Shown: in pieces, positions 4,825 through 62,777 of the stretch
How the letters are laid out: every line of letters starts with the position of its first letter
How positions within the stretch are numbered: position 1 is the first letter of the stretch
From: a virus
Direction: 5' to 3' (one strand)
Virus record (IMG/VR): IMGVR_UViG_3300017782_000002
Span: 55,817 to 119,816 of that record
DNA length: 64,000 bases
Notes under the pieces: generated by a model
Told to the model about the DNA's origin: nothing
The model's database searches: none
Seen by the model: the letters and a program-made list of their open reading frames with translations, nothing else
Program-made: the position numbers and the translations under genes

Positions 4825-5499
4825 ATGACAACAATAGGTGAAGCAATATCAAGACTCAGAGGAGCTCTTAAAGCAACCTCACAAGATGCGTTTGTTACAG
4901 ATAGATACCTTTATAGTCTTATATTGAAATACGCTCAGCTATTAATGAGAAGGCAAGATCACTCTAACAAACTTATGAAGTTTAGCGCAGTATGGCAAAC
5001 TTTACCTCATGTAGAATTAGTAGAAGTAGATAAGTTAGAAGCAGGTTGTGTAGGTATTTCTTCAGGACAAACTATAAAAAAGAGCAAGCATAAGTTACCA
5101 ACATTCATGCAAGGTTATTGGGGCCCTTTAGTTAGAACTGTATCATCATTAGATGGTTCTACTGAAATACAACCAACAACTCCTGGCTCATACGTTTCTA
5201 TGTCTAAAACAACTACATTTAAATATAATAACACTAAGTACTATTGGTTTTTAGATGGTTATTTGTATTTTCCAAATATAGAGTGGGATGCTGTTAAATT
5301 AGAAGGTGTGTTTGAAGCAGACATATCTTCTTGGACATGTGATACAGAAGATGACTGTACTCCAAGGTATTTACAAAATATGTATATACCAGAATTTTTA
5401 TTTGCAGAAATAGAAAATCAAATTTTAAACATACAGTTTAATACATTAAAAGTTACACCAGAAGACTCTCATAATAAAATAAATATAAATAGACAATAA
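4825..5499 (+). CDS. Probable connector/ring protein (first of two)
   Basis: 224 residues. The N-terminus is helical (residues 1-65, including SLILKYAQLLMRRQ). A mixed beta region follows, with aromatic-rich strands around residues 130-165 and a Cys pair near residues 173-178. The C-terminus is helical and ends with Asn/Ile/Lys. There are no enzyme motifs. Its place just ahead of the second ring protein and the muzzle protein matches the crAss-like order of ring proteins stacked under the portal. The assignment rests mainly on synteny and general resemblance. The stop overlaps the next ATG by one base. Confidence 0.6.
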   Translation: MTTIGEAISRLRGALKATSQDAFVTDRYLYSLILKYAQLLMRRQDHSNKLMKFSAVWQTLPHVELVEVDKLEAGCVGISSGQTIKKSKHKLPTFMQGYWGPLVRTVSSLDGSTEIQPTTPGSYVSMSKTTTFKYNNTKYYWFLDGYLYFPNIEWDAVKLEGVFEADISSWTCDTEDDCTPRYLQNMYIPEFLFAEIENQILNIQFNTLKVTPEDSHNKININRQ

Positions 5500-6386: not shown

Positions 6387-6389
6387 AAA

Positions 6390-9300: not shown

Positions 9301-12300
9301 GAACTGCAATAAACAATCTTCACAGACCTTCTACAGTTGTTTTAAATACTAACACTAAAGTTGATTCACCTGGTCATTACGGTTTACAAGATGATTCAAA
9401 ATTTGTTATTGGTGGTGGTCAATGTGCAGGAGATGGTAATCACTCATTAAGTTGGTGGACACCTACTGGTTTAGCAACATCTAATATTTCTGCACATTAC
9501 GTTGGATTAAAAGTAGACAATGATTCACAGTATGGTCAATTAGACAGTATTCTATTTACACCAATGTCACAACCGTTTAAATTTTCTGACTCAGCGGCTG
9601 ATATAGATGCTAATACTAGATTTAGCACAGGACCTTTATTTGGTGGTGACACATACATATCAAGATATACAGAAAAAGTTACAATGCCTTTTTGGTATGA
9701 CTTTATGAAAGACTTACCTGACGGAAGTCCTTTTGATTATAGATATTATTCTAATGTACCTTTCCCAAGATATTGGATGAATACGGAAAAATACCGTATG
9801 GATGAATTTGTAAGACCTTTAACAAATCTTACATTTAATTTTGATGAAGCTTTTCCATCTGACATGTATCACTTAGATCAACCTACTGAAATTGATTGTG
9901 ATGCTGGACTAATTGGTACACAAGATGCAAGTGGGGGTACGGTTGCAAATTATTATGAACCTGGTAACTTCCATTTACAAGTAATAAAAGTTCCAACATC
10001 AGATAACATAATTGCTACTTTAAGTAATAGAATTAAAAGTCCAACGTGGGAAATAGCTGGGGTTGGTAAATCACAATTCATTAATCATCCAGGTGAACAA
10101 TGTTCTTGGTATCTTGCTGCTGGTGTAGACTGTCCTTCTAATCAAGTACCACAACAACCAGTTGAACCACCAAGAAGAAGAGAAGTAGCAATAGGTATTC
10201 AAGGTAGACATAGAAGTCATAACCACTCTACACCATTAATTGATTGGGGTGGAGGTAGTTGTATATCATCTGGTAAAGATGATTGGTATGACTTTGCTAA
10301 TCCTGGAGATGATGTTTCACCACCAAGAACTACAGATATAGATGGTCAAGTAAGAACGTTTAAAGCTTTATATAATTGGAATGAAGGTAAATTTATGTAT
10401 CCTGTAAGTAATGGATTACAAGATAATACTTATGCACATGGTGGTATTATAGGTAATCCTGCTTATAATGCTACATGTCATCATAATGGATATTGTACAA
10501 TGGGTGGAACTTGTACTGCTGCAAACGGTGATCTTACTTCTTTTGCTACTGCGGCAACTTGTACAGCTAACGGAACATGTAGCAATCCAGTATATAATCT
10601 TGGATCTTGTAGTGTTTCAGGTTATACTACATCATCAGGTTGTACTAACGCAGGTGGTGTATGGACTACTGCTCAAGCACTTTGTACAGCTGCAGGTGAA
10701 ACATGGACAGTTAATACATGGTCAGGTGGTTCATTTATTAGTGAATCAGCAAAAACACTTAGAGATTGTAACTTAGCTGGAGGTGCATGGACAGACAGTT
10801 GTATTCCTGAAGATAATCCACAAGATTTTATATTCTATAGTAAAAAACAAAAGAAAAAAGAAAAAGGGTGGTTTTCAGGAACTATCGTACTTGATACAGG
10901 ATCATTCAATATTAACGGTAATGCTACGGATGCTGGTGGTTCAAATAGTGGTAGTTGGACAGACTGTGATGGAGCTGGTGCAAAATTTTGCAAACCGGGT
11001 GATGAAAATAGACTTGCAGGATTAGATCCACAAGATTGTCATAGAAATGTTCACACGTTAGTTACTAAAGGTGGAGCGCCTCCTAAGACTTCAGATATTG
11101 GTGATGATCAAGATAACTATAGTGCAACAATGAATGACAATAGTAATAATCCTGTTAAGAAAACAGGAGGACTTTTTGTTGAAAGCACAGGTTATATGTA
11201 TACACATGTTAGTGGTATACAAGATTTCTTTGTTGAATCAGACATGAATCTTTCATTTAGAGATTGGGAAGACCAACCAAGAAAAAAACATTATGATTAT
11301 TTAGAATATACAGACATACATGAATTATTCCACGTAGATCATATTAAGGGTGATAACTATTATAAGTATGATAAATCTCTTAATACAAGAAGATTCTGGA
11401 CTGCATCTTTTGGTAACATACAAGAAAGATATTATGATCCTTACGTATCTGAAACATGTTTTACTAAATATCCAAAAAGATTATTATACTCTTTACCCTC
11501 TGTTGGAGCACATACAAAAGAATTACAACAGTTTAAAAGAGATGAGAAAGCAGATCATTGGAGAACATTCCTACCAGAAAATTTTAGAGACTTTAAATCT
11601 AAAGTAAATACAATTGTACCAACAGGTAAAACAGGAGCAATAATATTATTTCCTACATTGTCTCCACAATTATTCCAAGGAGTAGACCAATTAAAAATGG
11701 AAAGTTCTGGTAATAAATTAACAATAGGAGACGGTGGTTTATTTAGTCAAGCTTTTCAAAGCATAACAAATTCTAATGTATCTCATGAATATGGATCATG
11801 TGAAAGCGCTAGAAGTGCTGTACAAACACCTGCTGGTTTATTTTATGTATCACAAGCACAAGGTAAAATATTCCAATATGCAGGTAAAGGTTTACAAGCT
11901 ATATCTGATATGGGAATGAAATGGTGGTTTAACAAATACTTACCATCTCAATTATTAAAAGCATTCCCTGGTATAGAAGATTCACCTAGAGCAGTAGATA
12001 ACCCTGTAGTAGCTGCAGGTGTACAATCTATATATGATCCAATGAATGATATTGTATACTTTGCAAAAAGAGATTATAAGCCTCTTGCAGATAAACTTCC
12101 TGATTTATCTTATTTACCTGATGGAAGATTTATGTACTCAGATGCTAGTACACAACAAAGTGTTGAAGTGCATCTTACAGATACAGATTATTTTGAAGAT
12201 ACATCTTGGACAGTTAGTTATGACCCTAAAGCTAAAGCTTGGATTTCATTCCATGACTGGCATCCTGAATTAGCTTTTAATAGCATAAATCATTTCTTAA

Positions 12301-13940: not shown

Positions 13941-16900
13941 TGAATAATAAAGATATATTAGGATATAGTGATGGTTCTCCTTACAGCAGTGAGCCTTTTA
14001 TAGATATTAATACACCTAACGGACTTATAGATATGTCAAACACAGGAAGACCAATATTAGCAAACGGTGTAGAGCTTGCTCCTTATTCTGGTTTACATAA
14101 TATGGGCACAACTAATGTAAGAGAAATACCATTAGATAAATTTCAAGGTCCTTTAAGATTAGGTGAAGTTGGTAGAAAATTAACAAACTTTTTTAAACCT
14201 AGAAATATTTTTAACTTCAGTAAAACTCCTATGACTCCTATGCTTACTAATAAGAGCTTTACTAAATTTGGAGATCCAGGTGATGTAAGACAATATAACT
14301 TAGGTGATTGGACAAACTATATAAATGATGTAAATAATTTACAAAGACCTGCATTACCTTATAGTCCTGTACAAACTAGAAGTCTTTCTATAGGTAATGC
14401 TTTAGTTAACAATACAGATAAAGCAGGTAATATAAAATTATCTACACTACAAAATTTTACAAATAACTTAGATAGTAAAGTTACAGGAGCACAAGTACAA
14501 GCAGACAAACTATTGTTACAAAGTACAATAGATGATTTAAAAATAACTAACCCAAGTCTTACGGATAAAAGCAAGATACCTTATTCATTATTTGAATCAG
14601 AAGTAAATAAAAATATAATACAGTTTCAACCTAAATTAGTAAATACACATGCTCATGTAGGGATGGATGCATTAGGTTACAAAATAAGAAAAAGTGAAGG
14701 AATTGGAGCTGTTACAAACAAAACAATACTTTGGCAAAATAATCAAATAGGTAATCCTATTAGTGATTCTCATTTTCCTACAAATGAAAAGGGACCAACT
14801 TACGGACATACAAGATTTTTTAGTACAGACAAAAAACTTTTTAACATATTAGAATTACAATCAGATGAATTTCAAAGACCTTTACTAGCTAAACTTAAAA
14901 AAGCTGATATACGTATTATTAGTGCTCAAAACAAAAAGAAGGAAAAACAAAACTTAATAGATAATTGGTCTCCAAATGAAAATAGCATAATGCCTCCAAA
15001 CCAACAGTGGGCAAATTATAAGTCACAAGCAAATGAAGAAATAAAAAGATATGATGATCAAATTAAAAATGCAGAATATGATAGAGATCAAATTGGAGGT
15101 TTAATATCAACTAGATCAGCTAATACAAATAAACAAATAAATGCATTAGAAAAAAATCACATGTCAAGGATGTTTGCAGAAACAGTTAAGTATGCAGCAG
15201 ACAATGGTTTTCAAACTGTAAGGTACCCTCACCAAAAAACAGTAGCTGTTATTGAAGGTTTTACACCAAGTATTGAAGATAAAGATGTATTAGTAAATCC
15301 TTGGACACGAAGTAATACAGCTGATTTTGATGTGGCTATTAATGAGTTAAGTACAGGTAATACTTATGGTCATACTACAGTAGCTAAAAAACACGGACCT
15401 TTTGTAAATATACCTGATGAAGTAAATTCAGTATACTCTATGGGTAGCAACCCAAGAATAACACATGAAGAAAAAGGTTGGGCTCCAAAAAAAGATAGAA
15501 AGCCTAGAATGAATGCTTATGCAGATGATGAAAGTTATAGACAATCATTGTATGATGATGGATGGACTGATGCAGAAATTGCTGATTATAACAGAAATAT
15601 AGGTCACTGGAAAAATCAACATATATCTTTAGATAATAATGGTAAATACACTATGACTGTAAGAAATGCAGATGGTGATCAATATAATACTGCTCCAGGT
15701 TGGGCTTCTCCAAGCATTGAAATACCAGAAGAAACTGCAAAGAATTTACAAGGAGGTTTATATCATATACAAGAGAATGGTTCTTGGCTTTATGTTGGTA
15801 AAGACAAAGATGCTGTTACTAAATATACACAGGATATAAGAGAAATAAATCATAAAAAAATAGAGCAGCCAGAAAGGCCGGTATTTAACATAGATGACTA
15901 CGGGGGTGTAAAATATAAAAAAGACAAAAATAAATTTCTTAAAGATGGTGTTACAGAAAATCCTAATTATAATAAACGTGCAAAAAATAGCAAAGGTGAA
16001 CTTACTATGGAAAGAAAATGGTCTGATCAACAAACTATTCTAAGAAAATATAATGAAAAGGATTTTAAAAAATATTTAAAATCTACTTTTGGTAAAGATG
16101 CAACTTACAAAGTAGTCTATGATGAAAAAGGATATGCTTGGTATGAGTTTGATTTACCTGTTAATTGGAAAGCAGGTGAAGCTCAAATTAAAGCTTATAA
16201 GCAAGGTGGTGAAATAGGAGGATATAGATTATCTAAGTTTAATGATGGAGGTGGAGTAGATTATTCTGACGCAGAAGAAGTTACTATTAACGGACAAACT
16301 TATTACAGACATAAAGTAAAACCTACTCAAGGTAAAGGTGAAATAAGTTCAAAGTATGGTATATGGAATCAAGAAGCTGTCTTAAATTCAATTAATAGTA
16401 AATTTACTAATATAAAAGATCAACCTGATTATTCTAAAATGGTTAATAGAATGTGGGAAGGTGATTACGTATTAGTAGGAGGTCCTGAATTTGAACCACA
16501 TGTACAGTATACAGAAGACAGAGGATCATATGCTAATTCATTTGAAAGCATTCCGCAAGAAGAACTATGGTCTGCAATAACTGCTATTGGACATATTGAA
16601 ACAGGCAGCAAAGTAAAATATAAAAGACCAGAAGGTAGAAAATATAAAAACACAACTGATGACCCACAATACTTAGCAGACAATCATCCATTTACAGGTA
16701 TATATGAAAGTGGTATGGATAATGCATATGGCTTTGTAAGTAGTGCTAATGCTTTAGGTAGATTTGGCATTAAAGAAGTTCTTGTAGACAAATATGCTAA
16801 AGACATATTAGGATATAAAGAAGGAGAAGATTGGAGAGGTCAGTATCTTAAGAATAAAGAAGACCAACGTAAATTAATGAAACATTTAATTACGCAAGTT

Positions 16901-17890
16901 TATCCTGATGAGCTTGTCCAAATAAGACACTTTCATCCAGAGACTTCTGCACAGTATTCAGATTTTGAATTATTAGCAGCTATACACAAAGGTGGTCAAG
17001 GTAACGTTAAAAAACAATTGTCAGAGGGTCAATTTTCAGAACAAGCAGTTGTAGGTGATATATCAATGGGAGGATATACAAAAAGAATTATGAACTATCT
17101 AGATCCTGATTTAGATATATCTAACTCATCTTTCTTTATGAAAAATAATCCTGCACACAATTTCTTTAAAAACAAACCTAAATATAAGTTTGGAGGTTCT
17201 ACAAATAAAGAAGAAGTTAGAAATGAAATTATAGCTGACATGCTAGACAATGGAGCTTTCTTACCAAAGTTTAAACAAGGATCAGAAAAAAATATAGAAG
17301 GTGTTTTAGGTAACTATAGAATTAATAAGTCTTATGATAATAAAAGACAATTACCTTTTATAGAATATAATAGTAACTCTGAGTCTTTAGAAAACAATAG
17401 AATTTATTATGATAAAGATGATGCTGGTTATGATAACTTTAATATTATTGATGTATATACACAAGAAAATGATCAAAAGAAAAGACACAATAGAATAAAA
17501 AATATAATTTATAAATATGATCAAGGGTTACAATTAAATCCTATTGAGTTAGAAACAATGAGAGAATTAGGATTATTAAACAATCAACCTAGAAGACAAA
17601 AAACAACAGAACAAGTAGTTGTTAAACCTGTTAACAATGGTGTTGATATTCCTTTAGAAGATATTAATGCTTCAAAAGATCTTTACAATAAAAAAGACGG
17701 TAACAATAAAGGTATATCACTAAAACATCAAATATCTATTTATTCTAAATTAATAAATGGTATCTTTGACAAAGATGAAAAACTAAAAAAAGTTAAAAGG
17801 GTATATGATAGACTAAACAGTCTATATTATAATGATGCAAAGGCTAGTAAGATGACTGTGTTAGACTACATGAAGTCATTAAATAATTAG
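13940..17890 (+). CDS. Virion cargo protein: polyvalent-protein domain plus lytic transglycosylase-like domain
   Basis: 1,316 residues. Residues ~235-520 contain a signature of the large polyvalent-protein-associated domains: SDSHFP, then YGHTRFF (288-294), then ELQSDEFQ (305-312), then a FAETVKYAADNGFQTVRYP block. A segment at ~710-740 (STFGKDATYKV...YAWYEFDLP) belongs to the same architecture. Residues ~880-1040 look like a soluble lytic transglycosylase: IGHIETG with candidate catalytic E887, then SSANALGRFGI (934-944), then LLAAIHKGGQGNVKKQL. Such a domain would locally open peptidoglycan during genome entry. A KYKFGGS segment and a GAFLPKF copy follow, part of a motif shared with other cargo proteins. 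It directly follows the muzzle gene (TAATG). The function of the polyvalent domain is unknown. Confidence 0.75.
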   Translation: MNNKDILGYSDGSPYSSEPFIDINTPNGLIDMSNTGRPILANGVELAPYSGLHNMGTTNVREIPLDKFQGPLRLGEVGRKLTNFFKPRNIFNFSKTPMTPMLTNKSFTKFGDPGDVRQYNLGDWTNYINDVNNLQRPALPYSPVQTRSLSIGNALVNNTDKAGNIKLSTLQNFTNNLDSKVTGAQVQADKLLLQSTIDDLKITNPSLTDKSKIPYSLFESEVNKNIIQFQPKLVNTHAHVGMDALGYKIRKSEGIGAVTNKTILWQNNQIGNPISDSHFPTNEKGPTYGHTRFFSTDKKLFNILELQSDEFQRPLLAKLKKADIRIISAQNKKKEKQNLIDNWSPNENSIMPPNQQWANYKSQANEEIKRYDDQIKNAEYDRDQIGGLISTRSANTNKQINALEKNHMSRMFAETVKYAADNGFQTVRYPHQKTVAVIEGFTPSIEDKDVLVNPWTRSNTADFDVAINELSTGNTYGHTTVAKKHGPFVNIPDEVNSVYSMGSNPRITHEEKGWAPKKDRKPRMNAYADDESYRQSLYDDGWTDAEIADYNRNIGHWKNQHISLDNNGKYTMTVRNADGDQYNTAPGWASPSIEIPEETAKNLQGGLYHIQENGSWLYVGKDKDAVTKYTQDIREINHKKIEQPERPVFNIDDYGGVKYKKDKNKFLKDGVTENPNYNKRAKNSKGELTMERKWSDQQTILRKYNEKDFKKYLKSTFGKDATYKVVYDEKGYAWYEFDLPVNWKAGEAQIKAYKQGGEIGGYRLSKFNDGGGVDYSDAEEVTINGQTYYRHKVKPTQGKGEISSKYGIWNQEAVLNSINSKFTNIKDQPDYSKMVNRMWEGDYVLVGGPEFEPHVQYTEDRGSYANSFESIPQEELWSAITAIGHIETGSKVKYKRPEGRKYKNTTDDPQYLADNHPFTGIYESGMDNAYGFVSSANALGRFGIKEVLVDKYAKDILGYKEGEDWRGQYLKNKEDQRKLMKHLITQVYPDELVQIRHFHPETSAQYSDFELLAAIHKGGQGNVKKQLSEGQFSEQAVVGDISMGGYTKRIMNYLDPDLDISNSSFFMKNNPAHNFFKNKPKYKFGGSTNKEEVRNEIIADMLDNGAFLPKFKQGSEKNIEGVLGNYRINKSYDNKRQLPFIEYNSNSESLENNRIYYDKDDAGYDNFNIIDVYTQENDQKKRHNRIKNIIYKYDQGLQLNPIELETMRELGLLNNQPRRQKTTEQVVVKPVNNGVDIPLEDINASKDLYNKKDGNNKGISLKHQISIYSKLINGIFDKDEKLKKVKRVYDRLNSLYYNDAKASKMTVLDYMKSLNN

Positions 17891-48640: not shown

Positions 48641-48690
48641 TAATTTATGTATTGATTATGGTTGTTGTCTTTGCTTTAGGTACTATGTAA
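48616..48690 (+). CDS. Possible 24-residue single-TM micro-ORF
   Basis: Encodes MKRIDITPVIYVLIMVVVFA and four more residues: a short basic start and one hydrophobic helix. It overlaps the nrdJ 3' end by 8 bases on the opposite strand and lies in the loop of the inverted repeat, so it may be chance. The strong membrane-helix character is the only support. Confidence 0.3.
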   Translation: MKRIDITPVIYVLIMVVVFALGTM

Positions 48691-50542
48691 TTTCACAGCT
48701 ACCACCAGCACAAGCTAACTCACCTTTTAAATCAGTATTATCATCAAGTTCTACAACCTTTGACAAGTCAACAGATGTAAGAGCTTTTAGTAATTCTTGA
48801 TACTTATCTTTTGAAATATCTTCAAATGGAGCTTGTGTATATGTACCACCGTTGTATGGTAATACAGCTAGACCATTATAACAATCTCTATTATCCCACA
48901 TCCATTTACCTGCTTTATCCCATTCATCTTCTTTCAAAGATACTGTTGCAGATACGTTGTGACTATTAGATCCTGTTCTGTGTCCATTACTTACCCAACC
49001 ATCTGAAATTAATTTGATACGTTTTAATAAATCAAATGCTGATTCAGTTCTTACTATAGAACCTTTTGGTGCTGCTTGTGGTATTGAAATAACAGCAGTA
49101 TCATGCGGTCTAAAGTATTCATCTTCTACTAATTCCGGGTGATTGTTTACCAAATATGTATAGATAGATTCATTTTTACCTACACGTAGTCTACGGATAT
49201 AAAAATCATTATGCCATGCATGAATACCAGAAGAAGTACCAAGAGTTAAAGATGTTGTACCAGCAGGTTTAACACATGTAGTTCTTGCTGCTTTATTTAC
49301 ACCAATCTTTTTTGCTATTCTTGCGTTCTCTCTTTTAACTAGAGATGCTGCTTCACCCATGTCTAATTTTAAAACTTTTCCACTAGCTATACCAGTCATA
49401 GATACACCAATAAGAGCATCCTTTTCTGTAGTTTCTTGCCAAATTTGTCTTAAGTAATGGAAATTAGTATAGCCAGCTTGCAATGTACCTATGAATGCTG
49501 CACCCTTTACTCTTTTGTTTAACTCTTCTTGTGTGCTAACATCTGAAACATTTACTTCACAAAGATTACAAAACTGATATGGACGTAAAGCAATTTCACA
49601 ACATGGGTTAGTACCCCAGTCTTTATCATTGTTAAAATAAATACCAGGCTCACCAGATCCAGAAAGTTCAATACGCTTCCATACATCTGTAAAAAAGTCT
49701 TTAGTAATTTTATGTCTCATTAATACAGCAGAGTTATTAGCTCTACCTCTTTGTGGATTTTTTTCCCACCAGTCACCTGACTTGCAAGAAATCATTTCAT
49801 CATCATGAGCACTAAAAAGACTAATAAGAGCAGCACGTCTAATACCTCCAGCTAATACTGCATCAGCAATATAACAAACTATATCATGAACTTCTAAAGT
49901 ACTTAATTGATCTCCATCTTCTTTATTACTTAGTATACCTTCTACTTTAAGTAAGCATTCTTTAAGTGGTTGAGGACCAGGAGCTTTACCACCAGATGTT
50001 ACGAGCCTAGCACCCTTTGGTCTAATATCTGAAAAATCAAATATGATCTTAGAAGATCTACCATTTAAATATGATTTCATTAATAATTTAACTGCGTCAG
50101 CCCAACCTTCTATAGAGTCACCAATTAAATATCTTTTAGTTCTTTTTGTATAAGGTTTGTTTATAGGAGGCAGTTGAGCAACATGATGATTTTGAACAGA
50201 ATAACCAACGCCTGTTCCACCTAACAACAAAAACATACACTCACTAAATGAATCAACATGATCTATAGGCATATAAGCACAATTGTATATTCTATTAGGA
50301 GCAATTTCAATTGGTTTACCACCAAATTGCATTGATCTCATTGATGGTAATATCTGTTTATCATAAACCATCTTATATACTTCTTCTATTTCATCTTTAA
50401 TGTGCGGGTATGACTTTAAGTGCATGTCCTTGTTTCTTGTAACTAATTCTTCCCATGTTTCTCTTCTGTTCAATTCTGGAAGATATTTAGCATATTTCAT
50501 ATGGACAGTAATATCACTTAGAATCTTGTTGTTTAATTCCAT
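48683..50542 (-). CDS. nrdJ: Class II (adenosylcobalamin-dependent) ribonucleotide reductase, monomeric type
   Basis: 619 residues from the ATG at 50542; a 37-residue upstream extension was rejected because it is Cys/hydrophobic, unlike the family, and lies over the predicted 5' leader. It reduces ribonucleotides to deoxyribonucleotides using a cobalamin-generated thiyl radical, feeding phage DNA synthesis. Visible residues are Cys88 (NCAY) and Cys325 as the likely disulfide pair, Cys314 in NPCCEI as the thiyl-radical Cys (family usually NPCGEI), the GEPGIYFNND region, the CVKPAGTTSLTLGTSSGIH phosphate-binding loop, and C-terminal Cys611/Cys616 for re-reduction by thioredoxin-like partners. 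It is the only clear minus-strand gene, with its own host-type promoter, which suggests early expression. No separate B12-binding domain or intein is seen. Confidence 0.95.
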   Translation of the reverse strand: MELNNKILSDITVHMKYAKYLPELNRRETWEELVTRNKDMHLKSYPHIKDEIEEVYKMVYDKQILPSMRSMQFGGKPIEIAPNRIYNCAYMPIDHVDSFSECMFLLLGGTGVGYSVQNHHVAQLPPINKPYTKRTKRYLIGDSIEGWADAVKLLMKSYLNGRSSKIIFDFSDIRPKGARLVTSGGKAPGPQPLKECLLKVEGILSNKEDGDQLSTLEVHDIVCYIADAVLAGGIRRAALISLFSAHDDEMISCKSGDWWEKNPQRGRANNSAVLMRHKITKDFFTDVWKRIELSGSGEPGIYFNNDKDWGTNPCCEIALRPYQFCNLCEVNVSDVSTQEELNKRVKGAAFIGTLQAGYTNFHYLRQIWQETTEKDALIGVSMTGIASGKVLKLDMGEAASLVKRENARIAKKIGVNKAARTTCVKPAGTTSLTLGTSSGIHAWHNDFYIRRLRVGKNESIYTYLVNNHPELVEDEYFRPHDTAVISIPQAAPKGSIVRTESAFDLLKRIKLISDGWVSNGHRTGSNSHNVSATVSLKEDEWDKAGKWMWDNRDCYNGLAVLPYNGGTYTQAPFEDISKDKYQELLKALTSVDLSKVVELDDNTDLKGELACAGGSCEIT

Positions 50543-50615
50543 TCTTTTAATTTTTAGTAAGGTTAATAATTGTGTAGTAAAACAAGATACTAAATTATCT
50601 TGAATTTGGCACGTG

Positions 50616-50648
50616 CAAATATACAAAAGTGAAAACAAAAAATCCAAA
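50616..50648 (-). promoter_or_regulatory. Bacteroidota-type promoter of nrdJ
   Basis: On the minus strand, TTTG (50648-50645) is followed after 21 bases by TATATTTG (50623-50616), an exact match to the TTG-N19-21-TAnnTTTG consensus of Bacteroidota primary sigma factors. It would give a leader of roughly 65 bases before the 50542 start, and would allow transcription by host RNA polymerase. Confidence 0.75.
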
Positions 50649-50826
50649 TTCAAACATGTAAGCTTGTCTTTCTTTTTTTTCTTTTAAAAAGAACCCATTA
50701 AACAATGTGTTTTCTAAATTAACCACGCTATAACAAAAGCCAATATTAATATTATTCCTTGAAATAATATGCAATTCAAAATTATGTTTTTTCATATGAT
50801 ATTGTTTTTTGTTAATGTAATTTTTT

Positions 50827-50877: not shown

Positions 50878-51162
50878 ATGAAAACTCAACTAAATAAAAT
50901 GACTAATATAGTCATACCTTTTGGTCAAACAGGGGCCATCACAAATAAAATATATAACGAACAGTTTAGGACATTTTCTGTGTACAACAATTCAGGAAAC
51001 TGCACAGTAAAAATAAGAGAGAATGGAAATGTTATGACTATACCAGTAGGAGTAACTGTAAACTTTGATGCTGCAACAGAAGGTAATAATACAATAAACA
51101 AATTCCCAACACAGGCTTTTGAGGTAAATGCAACTGACTGTGTAGTAGTAGGAACAATTTAA
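50878..51162 (+). CDS. Small beta-rich virion-like protein
   Basis: 94 residues. It has alternating strand-like segments (FRTFSVYNNSG, CTVKIRENGNVMTIPVGVTVNF, FEVNATDCVVVGTI) typical of a compact beta-sandwich such as a decoration or fibre-head protein. There are two Cys and no signal peptide. It comes first in the operon with the SprB-like fibre, 12 bases upstream of it, which suggests an adaptor or structural partner. The family is not recognised. Confidence 0.6.
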   Translation: MKTQLNKMTNIVIPFGQTGAITNKIYNEQFRTFSVYNNSGNCTVKIRENGNVMTIPVGVTVNFDAATEGNNTINKFPTQAFEVNATDCVVVGTI

Positions 51163-51174
51163 AAAATATAAAAC

Positions 51175-54100
51175 ATGTCTAGAAATTCAACCCATATAAA
51201 TTGTAATCAAGTTGCAGGAACAGTTAACCAAGGTATTTGGAAAAACGATTGTGATCCTTGTGCAACATCACCTTTTGCTATTAACAATATTACTGTTTGG
51301 CATAGGTTTAACTTTGGTGTAAATAATCACGCTACTCCTGCTGACATATTAGCTAACGTTGCTAATGCTGCTACTATATCACAATGGGATGATCAAATAG
51401 GCTCAAATGATGCTGAACAACAAACATTAGCTGATGCACCAACATGGTATTCTACAGATACTTCTCATAAAGTTACAGCAGGTAATCATTTTGATTTATC
51501 TTCTGCTATCACTTATGGTGCAGCTGCAGACTTTACAGTTTTACTTGCTTATGTGCCGTTAATAAATACAACTCCTTCAGGTCAAAAATTATGGGATCAA
51601 GCTGGTGGACAAAACTATCTTAAGTGGGATAGCCCTACTCAACTTACATTTAGATTAGCAGGACTTAATCATGTAGTAACAGGACCGGCTATACAATTAA
51701 CTGACTACACAAACTTTGTAGTTAGAAGATGTACAAACATGTGTCAAATATTTATAGCAGGTGTTCCATGGGGAGCTGCTTTCTTAGCAGCAGGTGCTTT
51801 AACAATAGAAAGATTAGGACCAGACGCTAATGGTTACATTGCTGCGCACATGCAATTTGACAGATGTTTAACTGATAAAGAAATATGGTGTCTTGATTGT
51901 TATAACAGTAATCAAAGTGATGAAGAAAATCCTGTAACATGTAATATAGGTGATTTTAAACTAGCTTGTAATGGTGATACAAACGGATCATTAACAGCAA
52001 CTATGTTTAATGCAACAGGAACTGTAACTTACTTATGGTCTCCTGGTGGACAAACAACACAAACAATAACTGGTCAAGGAGCAGGTACTTATACTTGTAC
52101 TCTTACTGACTCAGCATCTCCAGCAAATGTTTGTACAGCAAGCGGAGTTGTTACTGAACCAGTAGCTTTAGCATGTACAGTAACTGGAGTTAATCCTCAG
52201 TATATACTTAATAGTGCTGGCCAACAAATTTTAACAACAGGTAGTGTTTCAGCAGTAGCTACTGGAGGATATGGTGCAGGATGTACATTAACTTATGCAT
52301 GGACTAGAAACGGTAGTGCTATATCAAATGCAAATGGTGGAATGGCAGCTCCAGGTAATGTTGCATCATTTAATGTAACAGAAAATGGAGTTTATGCAGT
52401 AACTATAACAGATTGTTATGGTTGTACTACAACGTGTAATGTTACTATAACAATTCCTAACCCACCTAGTACTTTAGATATAGAATGTTGTTACGAAGCT
52501 GCAGGCTGTACAGATGAAGATATTAAATGGGCAATTATGTTAGACTCTACTGCAACTTTCCCTTGTACTATAACTGCATCTGGTTCTACATCAGGAACGG
52601 CTTCTTGGTCTCCTGTAACAATTTCTTCTTTACCTTCATCAACTTCAATAGACGGTTCTCAGTATGATATGTTCTCTTGTGAATCTAGCGGCCCTTGGGC
52701 TTATGGAAGTAATGCACAAAAGCTTTCTCCAGGTGAAACTTGGACGCTTACTGTAACTGACAGTTCTTCTCCAGCAAGGAGTCAAAGCTGTTCAGTTAAT
52801 ATAGTTAATCCTCCTGCTCTTACTTTAACATCATCAGTTACACAACCAACAATGTGTGAACATGGTGGATCTGTTTCTGACGGTGATATTACTTTTAATG
52901 GATCAGGTGGTAACCCAAATTGTAATCCGTGGACTTACTCAATAACTGGACCAAACAGTTTTTCAACTACTAATAACTATGTATTAAATGCAGCTCCAGG
53001 TACATACACTTTAACAGTGACAGATGCTTGTGGTTGTTCAGCAACACAAAATGTAACGCTGACTTGTCCAATAACAGCAGACATGACTGTAACTAATACA
53101 GATGTAAGCTGTAGACCAGTTCAAAGTGAATTAAACCCTAACCCACAAATACCTTGTGATGCAACGGCTACATTTACTGCAAACCCAACTTCAGTAACTG
53201 GATATACATTTGAAGCAATCCTTATGGATCCATCAGGTGTAGTTATATATAACTCAGGACAACTAGCAACTTTTAATGCTGCAACGGTTACTGGTTTATG
53301 TATTGGTAATTATACTTGGACTTATTTTGCTACTAACACAACTTCTGGTTTAACATATCAGGTAGACAGTGGATCGTTTACAGTTGCAGCTCCTCCCGCA
53401 TTAAGCGCAACAACAGTTGCTAACTTTATTCACTGCTTTGGAGGATCAACAGGAACAATTGATTTAACACCAAGCGGAGGAACACCTGGTTATACTTATT
53501 TATGGACAGCAGGAGCAACTGGAACAGTGCCTGCAGGTCAATCTACAAATCAAGACTTAACAGGTTTAGTATACGGAATATATTTCTGTACTATTACAGA
53601 TGCTAACGGATGTACTTTAACTATATCACAAAGTGTAAATGGATCAACTTGTCCTTTAACAATATATGGTATAGTACCAGAAATACCATGTCCTGGTCAA
53701 ACTACTAGTATTAAACAATTGTATATAACTTGTGGAACAGGTCCTTATACTTACGCATGGGTTGCTTCTAACGGTGGATCTTTAGGATCAAACTCATCAA
53801 CAGCAGATCAGTTAGTTGGCATAGGGGCAGGTACCTATACAGTTACTGTTACTGATGATAACGGTTGTACTGGAACTCAATCATGGACAGTAGTAGCACC
53901 TTCAGCAATATCTGGATCTATTACAGGAACAAACGTTGGCTGTAAAGGAGAAAGATCTGGAGCAGCACAATTTGACCAGTGGGCAGATCAACAATTTAGT
54001 GGAGCTAGTTACTTATGGACAACAGATGCAGGTTTTACAACACCTAACCCGTACGGACCATCTACCAACTCTTACATTAGTTCAGTACCAGCAGGAACAT

Positions 54101-55113
54101 ACTATTTACAAGTAACATTATCAAACGGATGTATTTGGACAGGTAGTATTGTAATAACAGAGCCTGGTACAGGAATGTCACTTAGTGCTGTTATAACAGA
54201 TGAGAATCAGTGTACTGATTGTTGTGGAGCAATAGACTTAACAGTTACAGGAGGGTCAGCACCTTACACTTTCCAATGGGATGATCCAGCTGCATCAACA
54301 ACCGAGGATTTATCGTGTGTTTCTGCAGGTGTGTATACAGTAATTGTTACAGATAATGCAGGATGTACTGCAACTGCTACATATACTGTAGGCGTAACCT
54401 ACTATCAGTTAACAATAGGTGTTGCATACGATAATACTACAGGTCAATTTACCACAACAGTTGGTGGAGGTAATCCTCCATACTACTACCAGTGGACTAA
54501 AAATGGAAATCCTTTCTCTTACGCACAAGATCCTTTTAGTGCAGGAAATGGTTACTACTGTGTAACTGTAACAGATTCAGTAGGATGTACTGGAACTACT
54601 TGTTACGATTTATCTAGAGAACCAAGAGGAGAAACAAGTTTTAACTGTCAAACTTACTCACCAACATTAGGTACAACATCATACGGATGTGTATCTGTAG
54701 CAGGAACAGGAGGTACTTACAGCACGCTTGCAGCTTGTCAAGCAGCATGTGAAGTTGAAAGACCTACTAGATATAGATGTCAAGAAGGAACTGGTTGTGT
54801 ATCACACCCTGGTGGAACATATACATCATTATCTGCATGTAATGCTGTCTGCGGTGCTTCTGGACAAAACGATATTAACTATGTTTGTGAAATCTTATGT
54901 AATGATAATGCATCAGGAGAAAGATATAAAACAACTGACGGAAGAGTTGATGTTGACGAAAGAGGTAATCCAGTTAGAGAAGACGCTGGAACTCCAGGTG
55001 GTAAATGTAGAGAAGAAAATTCTGAAACAGACTCTTCTTTAACTAAATACACAAGTTTTGAGCTTTGTAAAGCAGCTTGTCCTTGGTGTAAGGAAGGTAC
55101 TTATAAATACTAA
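51175..55113 (+). CDS. LamG-like plus SprB-repeat fibre/adhesin protein
   Basis: 1,312 residues. Residues ~35-245 look like a LamG/concanavalin-type lectin sandwich (FTVLLAYVPL, then LWDQAGGQNYLKWD, then FVVRR, then ending DKEIWCLDCYN). Residues ~250-1148 hold about ten Ig-like units resembling SprB repeats, with CxGxxxGxI..., GGTPGYTYLW and AGTYTVTVTDDNGC motifs; the cleanest are near residues 750-830 and 1010-1080. Residues ~1149-1312 are Cys-rich with three related modules of the form C...GGTY.sL.aC...C. SprB repeats are known from T9SS-exported gliding adhesins, but here there is no signal peptide or sorting domain, so a virion appendage is more likely. Host-surface or glycan binding is inferred. 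Confidence 0.8.
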   Translation: MSRNSTHINCNQVAGTVNQGIWKNDCDPCATSPFAINNITVWHRFNFGVNNHATPADILANVANAATISQWDDQIGSNDAEQQTLADAPTWYSTDTSHKVTAGNHFDLSSAITYGAAADFTVLLAYVPLINTTPSGQKLWDQAGGQNYLKWDSPTQLTFRLAGLNHVVTGPAIQLTDYTNFVVRRCTNMCQIFIAGVPWGAAFLAAGALTIERLGPDANGYIAAHMQFDRCLTDKEIWCLDCYNSNQSDEENPVTCNIGDFKLACNGDTNGSLTATMFNATGTVTYLWSPGGQTTQTITGQGAGTYTCTLTDSASPANVCTASGVVTEPVALACTVTGVNPQYILNSAGQQILTTGSVSAVATGGYGAGCTLTYAWTRNGSAISNANGGMAAPGNVASFNVTENGVYAVTITDCYGCTTTCNVTITIPNPPSTLDIECCYEAAGCTDEDIKWAIMLDSTATFPCTITASGSTSGTASWSPVTISSLPSSTSIDGSQYDMFSCESSGPWAYGSNAQKLSPGETWTLTVTDSSSPARSQSCSVNIVNPPALTLTSSVTQPTMCEHGGSVSDGDITFNGSGGNPNCNPWTYSITGPNSFSTTNNYVLNAAPGTYTLTVTDACGCSATQNVTLTCPITADMTVTNTDVSCRPVQSELNPNPQIPCDATATFTANPTSVTGYTFEAILMDPSGVVIYNSGQLATFNAATVTGLCIGNYTWTYFATNTTSGLTYQVDSGSFTVAAPPALSATTVANFIHCFGGSTGTIDLTPSGGTPGYTYLWTAGATGTVPAGQSTNQDLTGLVYGIYFCTITDANGCTLTISQSVNGSTCPLTIYGIVPEIPCPGQTTSIKQLYITCGTGPYTYAWVASNGGSLGSNSSTADQLVGIGAGTYTVTVTDDNGCTGTQSWTVVAPSAISGSITGTNVGCKGERSGAAQFDQWADQQFSGASYLWTTDAGFTTPNPYGPSTNSYISSVPAGTYYLQVTLSNGCIWTGSIVITEPGTGMSLSAVITDENQCTDCCGAIDLTVTGGSAPYTFQWDDPAASTTEDLSCVSAGVYTVIVTDNAGCTATATYTVGVTYYQLTIGVAYDNTTGQFTTTVGGGNPPYYYQWTKNGNPFSYAQDPFSAGNGYYCVTVTDSVGCTGTTCYDLSREPRGETSFNCQTYSPTLGTTSYGCVSVAGTGGTYSTLAACQAACEVERPTRYRCQEGTGCVSHPGGTYTSLSACNAVCGASGQNDINYVCEILCNDNASGERYKTTDGRVDVDERGNPVREDAGTPGGKCREENSETDSSLTKYTSFELCKAACPWCKEGTYKY
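51937..54618 (+). repeat. About ten SprB-like Ig repeats
   Basis: Diverged coding repeats of roughly 80-110 residues. Most end in a GTYT(V/C)TVTD...GC(T/S) strand followed by a short Pro- or Ser-containing linker. Divergence is high, with no DNA-level identity between neighbours. Repeat borders are approximate. Confidence 0.7.
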
Positions 55114-55131
55114 TATTGAATATAGGAAACT

Positions 55132-55428
55132 ATGGAAAAAGATATTAACCAAGAATTCATGCTTATGAAGTTAAAGATTGAGACGTTAGAGGAGAAGATA
55201 GATCACGTCAATGCAAAGTTGGGCGTCATAACAGAACATTTGCTGAATCCAGATCAAGGGTTTGTATCTAGAGTAAATAGAAATACTCAATTTAGAGAAG
55301 ACATAGGGCCTCTAGTAAAAGACATGTATGAAATAAGAAGATGGAAAAGTCAGGTGTCTAGAGTTCTTTGGATTATTGCAACAGGTATTATACTTGGACT
55401 AGTGGGATTATTATTTATGTTAAAATAA
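55132..55428 (+). CDS. XhlA-like membrane protein, holin candidate
   Basis: 98 residues. An N-terminal helix or coiled coil (residues 5-35, LKIETLEEKIDHVNAKLG) is followed by a charged middle and one C-terminal membrane helix (VLWIIATGIILGLVGLLF, ~79-96) ending in Lys. This matches the XhlA/hemolysin-like plan found beside phage holins and lysins. It is two genes ahead of the M15 endolysin, so a lysis role is plausible. It starts in an AACTATG context. Confidence 0.6.
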   Translation: MEKDINQEFMLMKLKIETLEEKIDHVNAKLGVITEHLLNPDQGFVSRVNRNTQFREDIGPLVKDMYEIRRWKSQVSRVLWIIATGIILGLVGLLFMLK

Positions 55429-55976: not shown

Positions 55977-56450
55977 ATGAAAAAGATTAGTGAACACATT
56001 AGTTACAAAGAAGCAATAACAAGTGCTACAGCTTTGAGAAGAGGTTTAGATAATACTCCTGGTCCTGAGCAATTAAAATGCATGCAAGAAATTGGTAGAG
56101 ATCTTTTTGAACCTCTTAGAGAGTGGGTTGAAGGTCCTATAAAAATAACTAGTATGTTTAGGGGAGAGCCTGTAAATACAGCTATAGGAGGTTCTAAAAA
56201 TTCACAGCATATGAAAGGTCAAGCTTTAGATTTGGATGATACATTTGGGTATAAAACAAATGCAGAGATGTATCACTATATAAAAGATAATTTAATATTT
56301 GATCAACTAATATGGGAGTTTGGAGATGATAATAATCCTAATTGGATACATGTAAGTTATGTAACTCATAGACCTAATAGAAAGAAGTGTACAGTTGCAC
56401 TAAAGAAAAACGGAAAGACAGTATATGAACATAGACCTATAGAGAAATAA
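55977..56450 (+). CDS. M15-family peptidase, endolysin
   Basis: 157 residues, the usual size of a single-domain phage M15_3 endolysin. The zinc site is complete: H78 in SQHMKGQALDLD, D85 in the same motif, and H125 in WIHVSY, with an upstream ITSMFRG strand. Such enzymes cut D-Ala-containing peptide cross-links of peptidoglycan. There is no signal peptide, so release would need a holin. The gene overlaps the next membrane gene (TAATGG), and the neighbours 55132 and 56450 are membrane proteins, which supports a lysis cassette. Confidence 0.88.
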   Translation: MKKISEHISYKEAITSATALRRGLDNTPGPEQLKCMQEIGRDLFEPLREWVEGPIKITSMFRGEPVNTAIGGSKNSQHMKGQALDLDDTFGYKTNAEMYHYIKDNLIFDQLIWEFGDDNNPNWIHVSYVTHRPNRKKCTVALKKNGKTVYEHRPIEK

Positions 56451-57668: not shown

Positions 57669-60600
57669 ATGAGAAAACTATTATTTATATTATTAGCAAC
57701 TATAATATCTTGTGTAGCACCAAAAAAATGTTGCTCACAAAATTCTTGGGTAAACTATCAAGTACAATATGATTTTTATGCACCATCAGAATCTAATTTC
57801 TTTATGGTATCTAATGCTAATGGTGATACAGCAATGTTTCATCAACCTACTACTCCTTATGAAACATTAGACACTACAATATTTATAGATTCAGGTTCTT
57901 ACACAGTTACATTAACAGACAGTTACGGAGATGGTTGGATTTCACAACAACCTGCTTTCTTTAGAATGCGTAACTTGTGTCAAGGTATGATAATTAATTG
58001 GGACCCAGTGTTAGGTTCTTTTTTTCTTAGAGATACTACTGTAAACATATTACCTTGTGCCCCACCTGTTTATGGTTGTATGGATCCGCTAGCATTAAAT
58101 TTTGATTCAAATGCTACAATTGATGATGGCTCTTGTATATATCCTCCATGTAATGGTGTTATTAATGACACTGCATTTCAAATGTGTTGGGGTAGTCAAG
58201 CAGCCATTTCTTTTGCATGGGAAACAACTAGCAATAACAATTGTGATGTAGTTAAATTATATTACGGTAGTGAAAGCGGTTATAGTATTACTGTCCCTGG
58301 ACTTTGGCCATCAGGTGGCTGGAGAGATTGGGCTACTGCTGCTGGCCCTGGTCAAATGCCTCCTAACTGGACTGAAGAACATTATTTAGTATTAGAATTT
58401 GCTGACGGTTCTTTAGCAGATACAATGTTTTTTACACCGTATGCTTGTATACCTGGGTGTACAGATCCAACACAACCATCATATAATCCTTGGGCTACTA
58501 TAGACGATGGGTCTTGTTCAGGTACTATATGTGATACAGCAACAGAATATCAAATAACAATGGAGCTTACACTTGACAATTGGCCAGGTGAAACATCATG
58601 GTTAATGAATAGTGGTGGTGTAATAGACAGTGCTATTATAGGTACATATAACTTTAATGATATTGGTCAAACTTTTACATACAATTTTTGTATAGATCAA
58701 GGTGCTGGATTTGAATTAATACTTAATGATTCATACGGAGACGGTTTAGCCGGTTCTACTTCTGGAGGTTCTTTAGATGGTAATGTAGTTATATATGATT
58801 GTAATGGAGATACTATATGGATGCTACCTGATCCTGATTTTGGTTATACTGCTTATTCATCTCCTCTTAATGGCGTACCGTGTAATATAACACCTCCTGT
58901 CTATGGTTGTACAGATGATGATTATGTAGAGTATAATTCTTTAGCAACCGTTGATGACGGTTCATGTTCAACATTACATATTTATGGTTGTACTGACCCA
59001 GCTGCATTTAACTACGACCCTAATGCAACAATACTAGATTTAGTTCCTGATTGTAATTATAGATTAATCTTAGAAGATGACGCTGGAGATGGTTGGGGTA
59101 ATTCTTATTTAGGTATAACACAAGGCCCTATGAGTTGGACTTATACAATAGGTCCTGGTATATATAGTGATACCTTTAATATAATATTAGATTCTGATGT
59201 TCCTGTAAATGTATATTACTTTGAAATAGGAGGACCACAAACTCCACCTGAAGAAGTTCAATTCCAAACATGGCATAATTCTTTTAAATTAATAAATGTT
59301 TATGATGATGTACTATTAGAAGAAGGAACAAATCCTTTTGCTAACAACGGACAAGGAGCACTGCAAGCTTTTGATAGTCCTTTCTGGAACAAATATACAG
59401 CAGTACCAAATTGTGGTGATTACTGCATACCAACAATTTTAGGATGTTTAGACGCAACAGCATTTAATTATATACAACCTGTGGGTGATTCATTAATAGA
59501 TGTAAATACTAGTGATGGATCATGTATGCCTGTACTACTAGGATGCACAAACCCAATTGCATTTAACTATGACTCTTTAGCAAACACAGACGATGGATCA
59601 TGTGTAGCTGAAGTAATAGGATGTATGGATACTGCAGCATTTAATTTTAACCCAGCTGCAAACACAAATGATCCAGCATCATGTATTCCTGTAATATATG
59701 GTTGTATGGATGATACACAATTTAATTACAACCCAGCTGCTAATACAGATGACGGATCTTGTATACCTGTAATCTTTGGATGTACTGACGCATTAGCTTT
59801 TAATTATGACAGCTTGGCTAATACAAACAATAATTCATGTATTCCATTTATATATGGCTGCACCAATCCTGCAGCTCTAAACTATGATCCATTAGCAAAC
59901 ACTGATGATTCAACATGTATAGGGATCATATACGGTTGTACTGATATTACAATGCACAACTATAATCCTTTAGCTAATACTGACAACGGATCATGTATAC
60001 CGTTTATATATGGGTGTACAGATTCAACACAGTTTAATTATGACCCTACAGCAAACACTAACAACGGTACTTGTGTACCATTTATATACGGCTGTACTGA
60101 TCCAAGCGCATTAAATTATGACCCCTTTGCTAATACAGATGATTTTAGCTGTGTTTTACCTATCTATGGGTGTATGGACAGTACAGCCTTTAATTACGAT
60201 CCACTAGCTAATGTGGATAATGGATCTTGTCTGCCAATAATATATGGTTGTACAAATCCTATAGCTTTAAATTACTGTGATACTTGTAACACAGATGACT
60301 TTAGCTGCATACTTCCTATATATGGATGTACAGACAGCACTATGTATAACTATAATCCTCTAGCCAATGTTGACAATAATTCTTGTATACCTTTCATTTA
60401 TGGGTGCACTGACCCTACTATGCTTAACTACAACCCATCCGCTAATACGGAAGACTTTAGTTGTATCTCTTTCATTTACGGTTGTATGGATAGTACTGCT
60501 ATTAACTATGATCCGTTGGCTAATACTGAAAATGGTTCTTGTATTGAAGCAATTGTCGGATGCATGGATCCAAATGCGTGGAACTTTAACCCAGAAGCAA

Positions 60601-61022
60601 ATGTAATATTAGGACATGATTCATTAGGTTGTTTATATGCAGCTAACTGTACTGCAACAGAACCTGGAGAACCATACTTTTTAAATGATGGTTGTTATGC
60701 TTGGGTTATAGATGTAGATGATTATTGTTGTAACAATGAGTGGGATGACATATGTCAAGCTACATACAATTATTGTTCTGATGGTTGGACAGGACCACAA
60801 CCTCCTGCTAGAATTGCTGGAGAAGATATATTTTTATATCCAAATCCAACTAAAGGTCTGTTAAATATTAGTAAAGAAGCAGACATTGAAGTGTATAATC
60901 CTTTAGGTCAAATGATAATAAAGAGAGAAAATATCACTATATTAGATATGAGCACCTTAACTAAAGGTATTTACACCATTAAAATAAATAAATTAATAAC
61001 AAAACAAATAATTAAAAATTAG
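57669..61022 (+). CDS. Phage-encoded T9SS-secreted repeat protein
   Basis: 1,117 residues. The N-terminus is a signal peptide (KLLFILLATIISC, then CCSQ|N); a lipobox-like IISC is also present, so lipoprotein processing cannot be excluded. Residues ~25-130, ~160-260, ~285-410 and ~450-580 are beta-domain-like. GC(T/M)D...DDGSC repeats begin at residue 136 and form a regular 26-residue tandem array from 625 to about 989; I count 19 units in all. The last 69 residues match a type A T9SS C-terminal sorting domain: YPNPTKGLLNI (1057 on), IEVYNPLGQ, LDMSTLTKGIYTIKI, and a Lys-rich end. It would be exported through Sec and then the host T9SS to the cell surface. Function unknown; surface masking or adhesion is inferred. 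Confidence 0.85.
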   Translation: MRKLLFILLATIISCVAPKKCCSQNSWVNYQVQYDFYAPSESNFFMVSNANGDTAMFHQPTTPYETLDTTIFIDSGSYTVTLTDSYGDGWISQQPAFFRMRNLCQGMIINWDPVLGSFFLRDTTVNILPCAPPVYGCMDPLALNFDSNATIDDGSCIYPPCNGVINDTAFQMCWGSQAAISFAWETTSNNNCDVVKLYYGSESGYSITVPGLWPSGGWRDWATAAGPGQMPPNWTEEHYLVLEFADGSLADTMFFTPYACIPGCTDPTQPSYNPWATIDDGSCSGTICDTATEYQITMELTLDNWPGETSWLMNSGGVIDSAIIGTYNFNDIGQTFTYNFCIDQGAGFELILNDSYGDGLAGSTSGGSLDGNVVIYDCNGDTIWMLPDPDFGYTAYSSPLNGVPCNITPPVYGCTDDDYVEYNSLATVDDGSCSTLHIYGCTDPAAFNYDPNATILDLVPDCNYRLILEDDAGDGWGNSYLGITQGPMSWTYTIGPGIYSDTFNIILDSDVPVNVYYFEIGGPQTPPEEVQFQTWHNSFKLINVYDDVLLEEGTNPFANNGQGALQAFDSPFWNKYTAVPNCGDYCIPTILGCLDATAFNYIQPVGDSLIDVNTSDGSCMPVLLGCTNPIAFNYDSLANTDDGSCVAEVIGCMDTAAFNFNPAANTNDPASCIPVIYGCMDDTQFNYNPAANTDDGSCIPVIFGCTDALAFNYDSLANTNNNSCIPFIYGCTNPAALNYDPLANTDDSTCIGIIYGCTDITMHNYNPLANTDNGSCIPFIYGCTDSTQFNYDPTANTNNGTCVPFIYGCTDPSALNYDPFANTDDFSCVLPIYGCMDSTAFNYDPLANVDNGSCLPIIYGCTNPIALNYCDTCNTDDFSCILPIYGCTDSTMYNYNPLANVDNNSCIPFIYGCTDPTMLNYNPSANTEDFSCISFIYGCMDSTAINYDPLANTENGSCIEAIVGCMDPNAWNFNPEANVILGHDSLGCLYAANCTATEPGEPYFLNDGCYAWVIDVDDYCCNNEWDDICQATYNYCSDGWTGPQPPARIAGEDIFLYPNPTKGLLNISKEADIEVYNPLGQMIIKRENITILDMSTLTKGIYTIKINKLITKQIIKN
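59541..60635 (+). repeat. Tandem 78-base coding repeats (14 GCTD units)
   Basis: Fourteen adjacent units of 26 residues (one of 27), each of the form GC(T/M)(D/N)..x.NY(D/N)P.ANT(D/N)(D/N)xSC followed by a hydrophobic linker such as IPFIY. Units are diverged in codons. Five other units lie scattered upstream between 58074 and 59520. The conserved Asp/Asn positions suggest calcium binding, as in thrombospondin type 3-like repeats, but that is an analogy only. Confidence 0.9.
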
Positions 61023-61736: not shown

Positions 61737-62777
61737 ATGATTAGACAACTGATATTAATACTACTTTGTTTACCTCTATTTAGTTTTGGCCAATTAGATT
61801 TAAAGAAAACTTTTAAATTTTCTACATTCTATGGTGCAATAAATGGAGGTACATCTATATCAGACGTTGATATATATTCTGTTACAAACGGTCTTGAAAC
61901 TCAAACTATTGAAACCCCGTATGATTATTCAGTATCATTAGGGATACGAAAGATTGCAAGATTTGGATATGAGAACAGAGCTAATACATTTTACGATGGT
62001 ACAGAGACATCATTTTCAGATGCAGCAACGATAGGAAAAGTAAAAGGTTTAGAGTTTTTATTTGAAGCTGACTACCGAAGAGTACAGGGTGTAGAGTACT
62101 TAGATCAACAACACTTTATTAGGTATGTTGAAAACAAATGGCTTACTAAAATAGAATATCTAAGAGATGGTTTTGCAGACATTGAGTATTTTGAAATGTC
62201 TGAAAGATATAAATATGAAGTAAATAATAAGTTATCTTTAAACATAGGGTTAGCACATAGAATTGCTGAGCCATATGGATTTGATCCTCTAGAAGAATGG
62301 AAGCTGAGTAATGGGAATTTGCATTACACATATTTAGCTTTACAAGAAGGATATAATGTTGATGTATTTAACAGTGAATATTATGACCCAGCTGGGAATG
62401 TTGTTGCGACAAGCTCAGAAGTATGGGAAGCCGTAGTTATTCCTGAAGTACTTCAAGATTATACAACTAGAAAAAGAAATAAGCTTCCTTCACAATGGAA
62501 CCATTCTTTAGTTGTAGGATTTGATTATTACTATTACACTAAAACTTTTTGGACACATGCTTGGGCTAACGTTATGCCTTGGCACTATAATGATGGAGGT
62601 GAATACTCTTATTTTAATTTTAATGATGGAAAACAATGGTATGATTATTCTGGTGGATTAATATTTGGAACTAAGATAACTAAACATTTAGGAACATTTG
62701 TTGAAGGTACATATAACAAATATTGGAACAGAACCTGGTATGATTTTAAGCTAGGCATTAACTATATAATATTTTAA
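61737..62777 (+). CDS. Predicted outer-membrane beta-barrel protein
   Basis: 346 residues. There is a clear signal peptide (RQLILILLCLPLFSFGQ, cleaved near G|Q as usual in Bacteroidota). The rest consists of alternating amphipathic strands rich in Tyr, Trp and Phe, and it ends in LGINYIIF with the terminal Phe typical of BAM-inserted barrels. Strand-like segments include YDYSVSLGIRKI, LEFLFEADYRR, LSLNIGLAHRI, HSLVVGFDYYYY and GTFVEGTYNKY. No TonB box or plug domain is seen. Phage-encoded outer-membrane proteins elsewhere exclude superinfecting phage or replace receptors; that role here is inferred. It is downstream of the T9SS cargo in the same transcription direction. Confidence 0.75.
   Translation: MIRQLILILLCLPLFSFGQLDLKKTFKFSTFYGAINGGTSISDVDIYSVTNGLETQTIETPYDYSVSLGIRKIARFGYENRANTFYDGTETSFSDAATIGKVKGLEFLFEADYRRVQGVEYLDQQHFIRYVENKWLTKIEYLRDGFADIEYFEMSERYKYEVNNKLSLNIGLAHRIAEPYGFDPLEEWKLSNGNLHYTYLALQEGYNVDVFNSEYYDPAGNVVATSSEVWEAVVIPEVLQDYTTRKRNKLPSQWNHSLVVGFDYYYYTKTFWTHAWANVMPWHYNDGGEYSYFNFNDGKQWYDYSGGLIFGTKITKHLGTFVEGTYNKYWNRTWYDFKLGINYIIF

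Follow-up and report, generated by a model that had tools for sequence, protein, structure and literature searches.

The gene at positions 51,175 to 55,113 (+ strand) of the 64-kb window analysed here, which is the final 64 kb of a virus record of 119,816 bases, encodes a putative virion appendage of 1312 amino acids. The protein is best read as a modular fibre or whisker that serves a tailed Bacteroidota phage in adsorption, with a stalk that consists mostly of SprB-type Ig/PKD units (probability about 0.6). This reading is preferred because SprB repeats are combined with a lack of export signals and because the gene belongs to the structural and lysis half of the genome. A phage fibre-like appendage had already been suggested by an earlier sequence-only reading; the missing export signals and the genomic setting agree with it, while the location of the protein in the virion is inferred, as are its distal end and the class of its ligand. 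In the proposed mechanism, the protein would be made in the host cytoplasm and assembled into particles without secretion. A near-invariant N-terminal arm of 31 residues would fix it to the virion, and ten Ig/PKD-like beta sandwiches, mostly of the SprB type, would make up an elongated stalk. Glycans of the cell envelope or matrix would most likely be contacted by the lectin-like head and by the Cys-rich repeats at the C-terminus.

The open reading frame begins with an ATG and is genuine, as judged from the listing of reading frames, Pfam matches and orthologs in two further viral contigs, L004 (1314 amino acids) and L005 (2602 amino acids), in which the gene order is the same as in the window. 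No frame runs through the junction when the ends of the record are joined, and the record was therefore handled as linear. All modules lie on the + strand. The N-terminal arm (residues 1-31; 51,175-51,267), which is proposed as the virion anchor on the basis of ortholog identity, is followed by a LamG/concanavalin A-like head (residues 32-255; 51,268-51,939) that was delineated by modelling, fold search and ortholog identity. The ten tandem units, which were classified with per-unit profiles, comprise U1 (51,940-52,167), U2 (52,168-52,473), U3 (52,474-52,818), U4 (52,819-53,079), U5 (53,080-53,400), U6 (53,401-53,649), U7 (53,650-53,910), U8 (53,911-54,180), U9 (54,181-54,402) and U10 (54,403-54,636), the last two being also covered by a C-terminal model. 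The Cys-rich C-terminus (54,637-55,110), which was defined by alignment and by viral homologues, indeed contains three Cys-rich units, namely two C..C..YxxLxxCxxxC repeats and a third, longer segment that terminates in CPWCKEGTYKY. The first two of these Cys-rich units belong to a repeat that is found in tandem in other viral proteins. The repeat (C..C..GTYxTLxACxxxC) was observed in tandem in viral proteins of L172, L173, L174 and L178.

The SprB family of Pfam (PF13573) matches the whole protein in four stretches with 71.4 bits (E 4.8e-20), which is above the cut-off of 28 bits, and is followed by BiPBP_C (30.2 bits) and a K319L-like PKD family (24.4 bits). Because SprB outscores every PKD/Ig family, the repeats are not just generic PKD/Ig domains, an outcome that would have spoken against the link to SprB. 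When the units were searched individually, the SprB cut-off was exceeded by three of the ten, U1 (30.8 bits), U9 (36.7 bits) and the best unit U6 (49.6 bits). U10 remained below the threshold (15.0 bits), U2, U4, U7 and U8 gave weak PKD/Ig matches and U3 and U5 had no useful match in Pfam. A repeat profile built from 1162 units of exclusively bacterial origin recognises eight of the ten units with 19.9 (U2) to 79.8 bits, the maximum for 500 shuffled control units being 8.1 bits; U3 (5.2 bits) and U5 (1.3 bits) fail. Hence, the "about ten SprB repeats" described previously are ten tandem units, only eight of which are recognisably SprB-type; U4, U7 and U8 are best described as SprB/PKD-type. 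The unit profile also matches solved phage virion proteins such as T5 pb10 (E 6e-11), T4-type Hoc, a neck whisker and a tail protein, as well as the 32-kDa capsid protein of phage N4. The view that SprB repeats are characteristic of gliding adhesins is therefore weakened, since the repeat does not serve as their marker. Judged from its sequence, the protein is a member of the SprB repeat family and not a SprB gliding adhesin.

The head is less well defined. The Pfam scan yielded no match for it, the LamG family PF13385 matches nowhere in this genome, and in the head of the L005 ortholog it reaches 13.9 bits (E 0.004), which is below the cut-off of 27.6 bits. A search with the head profile against solved structures did not give a match either. 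A head model of low confidence (pLDDT 44; three sequences) resembles folds of the concanavalin A/LamG type, including pentraxins, sialidase lectin domains, PilC and other jelly rolls, and these matches back a LamG/lectin fold class at most. The head, which had been described as LamG-like, is thus weakly so: the fold class agrees in a poor model but the family cut-off is missed. Matches of the head model to BoNT were discarded, as they stem from a widespread jelly-roll fold in a model of low confidence and have no bearing on toxicity. The C-terminal model (mean pLDDT 69; low overall pTM of 0.33) shows U9 and U10 as two good Ig-like domains, with blocks mostly at pLDDT 70-88, and, in the Cys-rich part, strands along with short helices. 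Among the fold matches of U9-U10 are adhesins, the grappling hook protein GhpA of Aureispira and the central tail fibre of phage lambda.

Both sister contigs have kept the order of the NrdJ gene, a gene for a 94-residue protein, the SprB-repeat gene and a gene for a 98-residue protein. The SprB-repeat protein evolves faster than NrdJ and the 98-residue neighbour because its identity to the L004 and L005 orthologs is lower (70% and 45%) than that of NrdJ (94% and 87%) and of the neighbour (97% and 83%). The most conserved segment is the N-terminal arm, which is 93% identical in L004 and 90% in L005; the head is 64% and 34% identical, and in the comparison with the distant ortholog the 90% of the arm stands against 34-64% for head and repeat units. 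L004 has all ten units in the same order, and counterparts of nine of them could be assigned in L005. The L005 ortholog (8001-15,809) is twice as long and has inserts at two places, which by eye resemble FG-GAP-type repeats. The conserved 94-residue protein directly upstream (50,878-51,162, +; 88% and 56% identity) may be a partner, and the 98-residue protein directly downstream (55,132-55,428, +) has a coiled coil, a transmembrane segment and a weak match of the holin/hemolysin type (E 0.008). Searches of 50,697 phage records with the head or the C-terminus gave chance matches (E 6-7) or none, the C-terminus on its own had no match in the viral contigs, and the phage-record searches did not reveal a cultured relative with a homolog of the SprB-repeat protein.

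The SprB-repeat gene sits between a structural block like that of Cellulophaga phage phi17:2 and a holin-like/endolysin pair, the latter including an endolysin-like M15 peptidase (55,977-56,450, +; Pfam and PHROGs). Its flanks are formed by NrdJ and the lysis genes, with fibre-like genes further on. The NrdJ-like ribonucleotide reductase, which was recognised by eye and is kept in both sister contigs, is encoded on the opposite strand (48,683-50,653, -) between the SprB-repeat gene and the main structural block. Homology relates a protein of 2516 residues (6390-13,940, +) to virion structural proteins of the Cellulophaga phages phi17:2 and phi4:1 (Lightbulbvirus), and the structural genes of these phages are similar in order to the structural block of the window; no homolog of the SprB-repeat protein was found in them. 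PHROGs families account for the terminase, the portal and the major head protein, and the start of the record carries tail-fibre matches. The Cellulophaga-phage relatives, together with cargo of the type IX secretion system (T9SS), indicate that the host is probably a member of the Bacteroidota. A SET-domain protein (PF00856; 48,161-48,490, +) is encoded near the locus and kept in both sister contigs, and L004 has a second SET-like frame by eye (5157-5525, -). GroEL-like (5036-6655, -) and GroES-like (16,673-16,963, -) frames were recognised only by eye in L006, which is part of the same phage record. A protein of 346 residues (61,737-62,777, +) has a signal-like N-terminus and looks like an outer membrane protein by eye; it has no match in PHROGs or NCBIfam.

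The absence of a signal peptide and a T9SS domain, which had been noted before, could be confirmed. A simple hydropathy test detected no hydrophobic segment near the N-terminus, the C-terminus matches neither PF18962 nor CHU_C (T9SS types A and B), and none of the three orthologs has a signal peptide or a sorting domain. A T9SS domain suggested by the whole-protein score of TIGR04183 was rejected, since none of the stretches passes individually and the highest-scoring one (963-985) falls within the repeat array. For comparison, a bacterial and a viral set, the latter comprising 80 loci in 40 clusters, were examined by a crude hydropathy test and with profiles derived from bacterial C-termini. 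A signal-like segment is present in 53 of 65 complete N-termini of bacterial SprB proteins, and 47 of 55 complete C-termini carry a sorting domain, a count that is partly so by construction because the profiles derive from that set. In the viral set, the representatives of eight clusters score for a signal peptide (L080, L011, L013, L014, L015, L016, L020 and L042). Sorting domains of type B were matched in L080, L020 and L042 and those of type A in L011, L013 and L012, whose 5' end is open. With the bacterial C-terminus profiles, L014, L015 and L016 have a signal-like N-terminus but no sorting-domain match; the L015 contig has a Pfam Por_Secre_tail match in a frame of similar length. Type A is under-counted, since the profiles miss the T9SS cargo of the window itself. 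Apart from a few partial frames that could not be judged, the other viral clusters, including the window protein and its two orthologs, have neither signal. The cargo is a type A protein of 1117 residues (57,669-61,022, +; TIGR04183 34.3 bits, PF18962 45.2 bits) with a signal-like N-terminus and repeats of the GCTDxxAxNYxPxANTxDxSC type. As PF18962 is also matched in both sister contigs, T9SS cargo is conserved in this phage lineage, and there is precedent for phage-encoded T9SS cargo in Cryophage (PMC7468147).

That most of the 40 viral SprB-type clusters likewise lack export signals counts for an appendage, as do the conserved N-terminal arm, the position of the gene, the baseplate genes next to the SprB-type protein of L032, the matches of the unit profile to phage virion proteins and the fold matches of U9-U10. 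Counting against a fibre, the best match in PHROGs names a head decoration and not a tail fibre, the NrdJ gene intervenes before the main structural block, the head model is poor and cultured relatives with the protein did not turn up. The main rival, which we consider unlikely, is a capsid decoration of the Hoc or T5 pb10 kind instead of a receptor-binding fibre; Ig-like domains displayed on the head would help particles to stick to surfaces or to a mucus-like matrix. It is favoured by PHROG 2973, "Hoc-like head decoration" (E 2.3e-15, over the Ig-like repeats), PHROG 3945 (E 1e-8) and the above-mentioned matches of the unit profile to T5 pb10, the N4 capsid protein and T4-type Hoc. However, the PHROG names probably rest on common Ig-like domains, the gene is distant from the capsid genes and adjoins lysis and fibre genes, and 1312 to 2602 residues with a lectin-like domain are large for a decoration protein. 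It is hardly probable at all that the protein is a phage-made adhesin on the surface of the infected cell, comparable to the T9SS cargo, the gene for which lies 2.5 kb further downstream. The presence of this cargo in the same genome and of secreted SprB proteins in other viral contigs would fit such a role, but the missing signal peptide and sorting domain in all three orthologs argue against it. It is also rather doubtful, but conceivable, that the lineage exploits the surface-adhesion toolkit of Bacteroidota from both sides, with an SprB-type virion fibre and a conserved phage protein exported by the host T9SS onto the infected cell. The two may cooperate, for instance by holding particles at the infected cell surface or by keeping them away from it.

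According to the sequence-only reading, the phage may have taken adhesin repeats from its host to build an appendage for binding to the surface or glycans used by SprB-family proteins. A recent capture of this kind is very unlikely. It is true that every window unit has its best match in the bacterial set and not in a sibling unit, but this set is more than 100-fold larger and had been retrieved by means of the phage units. In its GC3 (14.5%), the gene is like the large virion genes of the phage (14.7% and 15.2%), although its GC content as a whole is higher (38.3% against 32.7%). Among proteins that have five or more units, the best match lies within the same protein for 39% of the bacterial units, 2% of the viral units, a figure lowered by near-identical proteins, and none of the ten window units. 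For the best-matching sibling unit, the median score amounts to 80.9 bits among bacterial units, 37.7 bits among viral units and 33.1 bits among those of the window; viral arrays are thus diversified and bacterial arrays more homogeneous. The unit tree lacks resolution and does not reject that the window units form one clade (AU p 0.154). Recent capture was thus discarded in view of phage-like GC3, collinear units in the orthologs and unit diversity; if it happened, capture would be old. The proposed binding to SprB-family surfaces or glycans found no support, as no ligand emerges from these data.

The preferred reading, a virion appendage, can be compared with several known systems. The repeat family PF13573 is common to the phage protein and the SprB surface proteins of Bacteroidota such as SprB of F. 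johnsoniae, from which the former differs in being phage-encoded, in its fewer and diversified repeats and in the absence of a signal peptide and a T9SS domain. The crAss-like phages have arrays of BACON repeats in tail proteins (PMC6949934), which likewise are tandem arrays of a Bacteroidota-associated Ig-like repeat in a putative structural protein of a Bacteroidota phage; however, the repeat family is different, and the Pfam scan finds no BACON in this protein. Modular Ig/PKD adhesins of gut phages (PMC13370021) and T4 Hoc (3shs) also have Ig/PKD-type domains in a likely virion-exposed protein, but the present one has SprB-type units, a LamG-like head and a Cys-rich end and belongs to a lineage related to Cellulophaga phages. 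GhpA (9flp/9flw) matches the units by profile (E 1.4e-4) and by fold, yet it belongs to the surface of a bacterium and has nearly 5,900 residues. A literature search joining "SprB repeat" and "phage" returned polymorphic toxins only; it covered few subscription papers and is weak evidence of novelty. If the protein is present in virions, SprB repeats would be another module, besides BACON and PKD/Ig domains, that is common to Bacteroidota phages and host surface proteins, and the annotation "SprB repeat" would no longer point to a gliding adhesin.

SprB-type repeats were detected in no fewer than 231 viral contigs, with export signals lacking in most of the sampled clusters, and may represent a candidate class of appendage proteins in uncultured phages. 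The large terminase subunit (TerL, PF03237) was detected in 11 of the 38 viral contigs searched; thus, not each contig is independently proven to be phage. In L022, L036 and L043, the genes adjacent to the SprB proteins could not be named with PHROGs, so that only L032, whose SprB-type protein directly adjoins baseplate wedge genes, has a named structural neighbour. The SprB-type proteins of L022, L043 and L036 had no cultured relative among the phage records. Secreted SprB proteins were also observed. In L082, a contig with TerL, a protein of 820 residues (4999-7461) that combines two SprB repeats and PKD_6 with a signal peptide and a type IX secretion signal (CHU_C) follows two sheath-like genes and a tube-like gene, these three recognised by eye; it thus appears to sit in a myophage-like tail operon, and its cluster comprises ten viral loci. 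Two further secreted proteins of the SprB type, with C-termini that read like a type B sorting domain, are encoded in L181 (5947-8145) and L182 (2416-7428), records of uncultured phages that measure 635 and 642 kb. By eye, the neighbours of the L181 gene are not tail genes, and its protein is related to that of L082 (48.5% identity, 98% covered).
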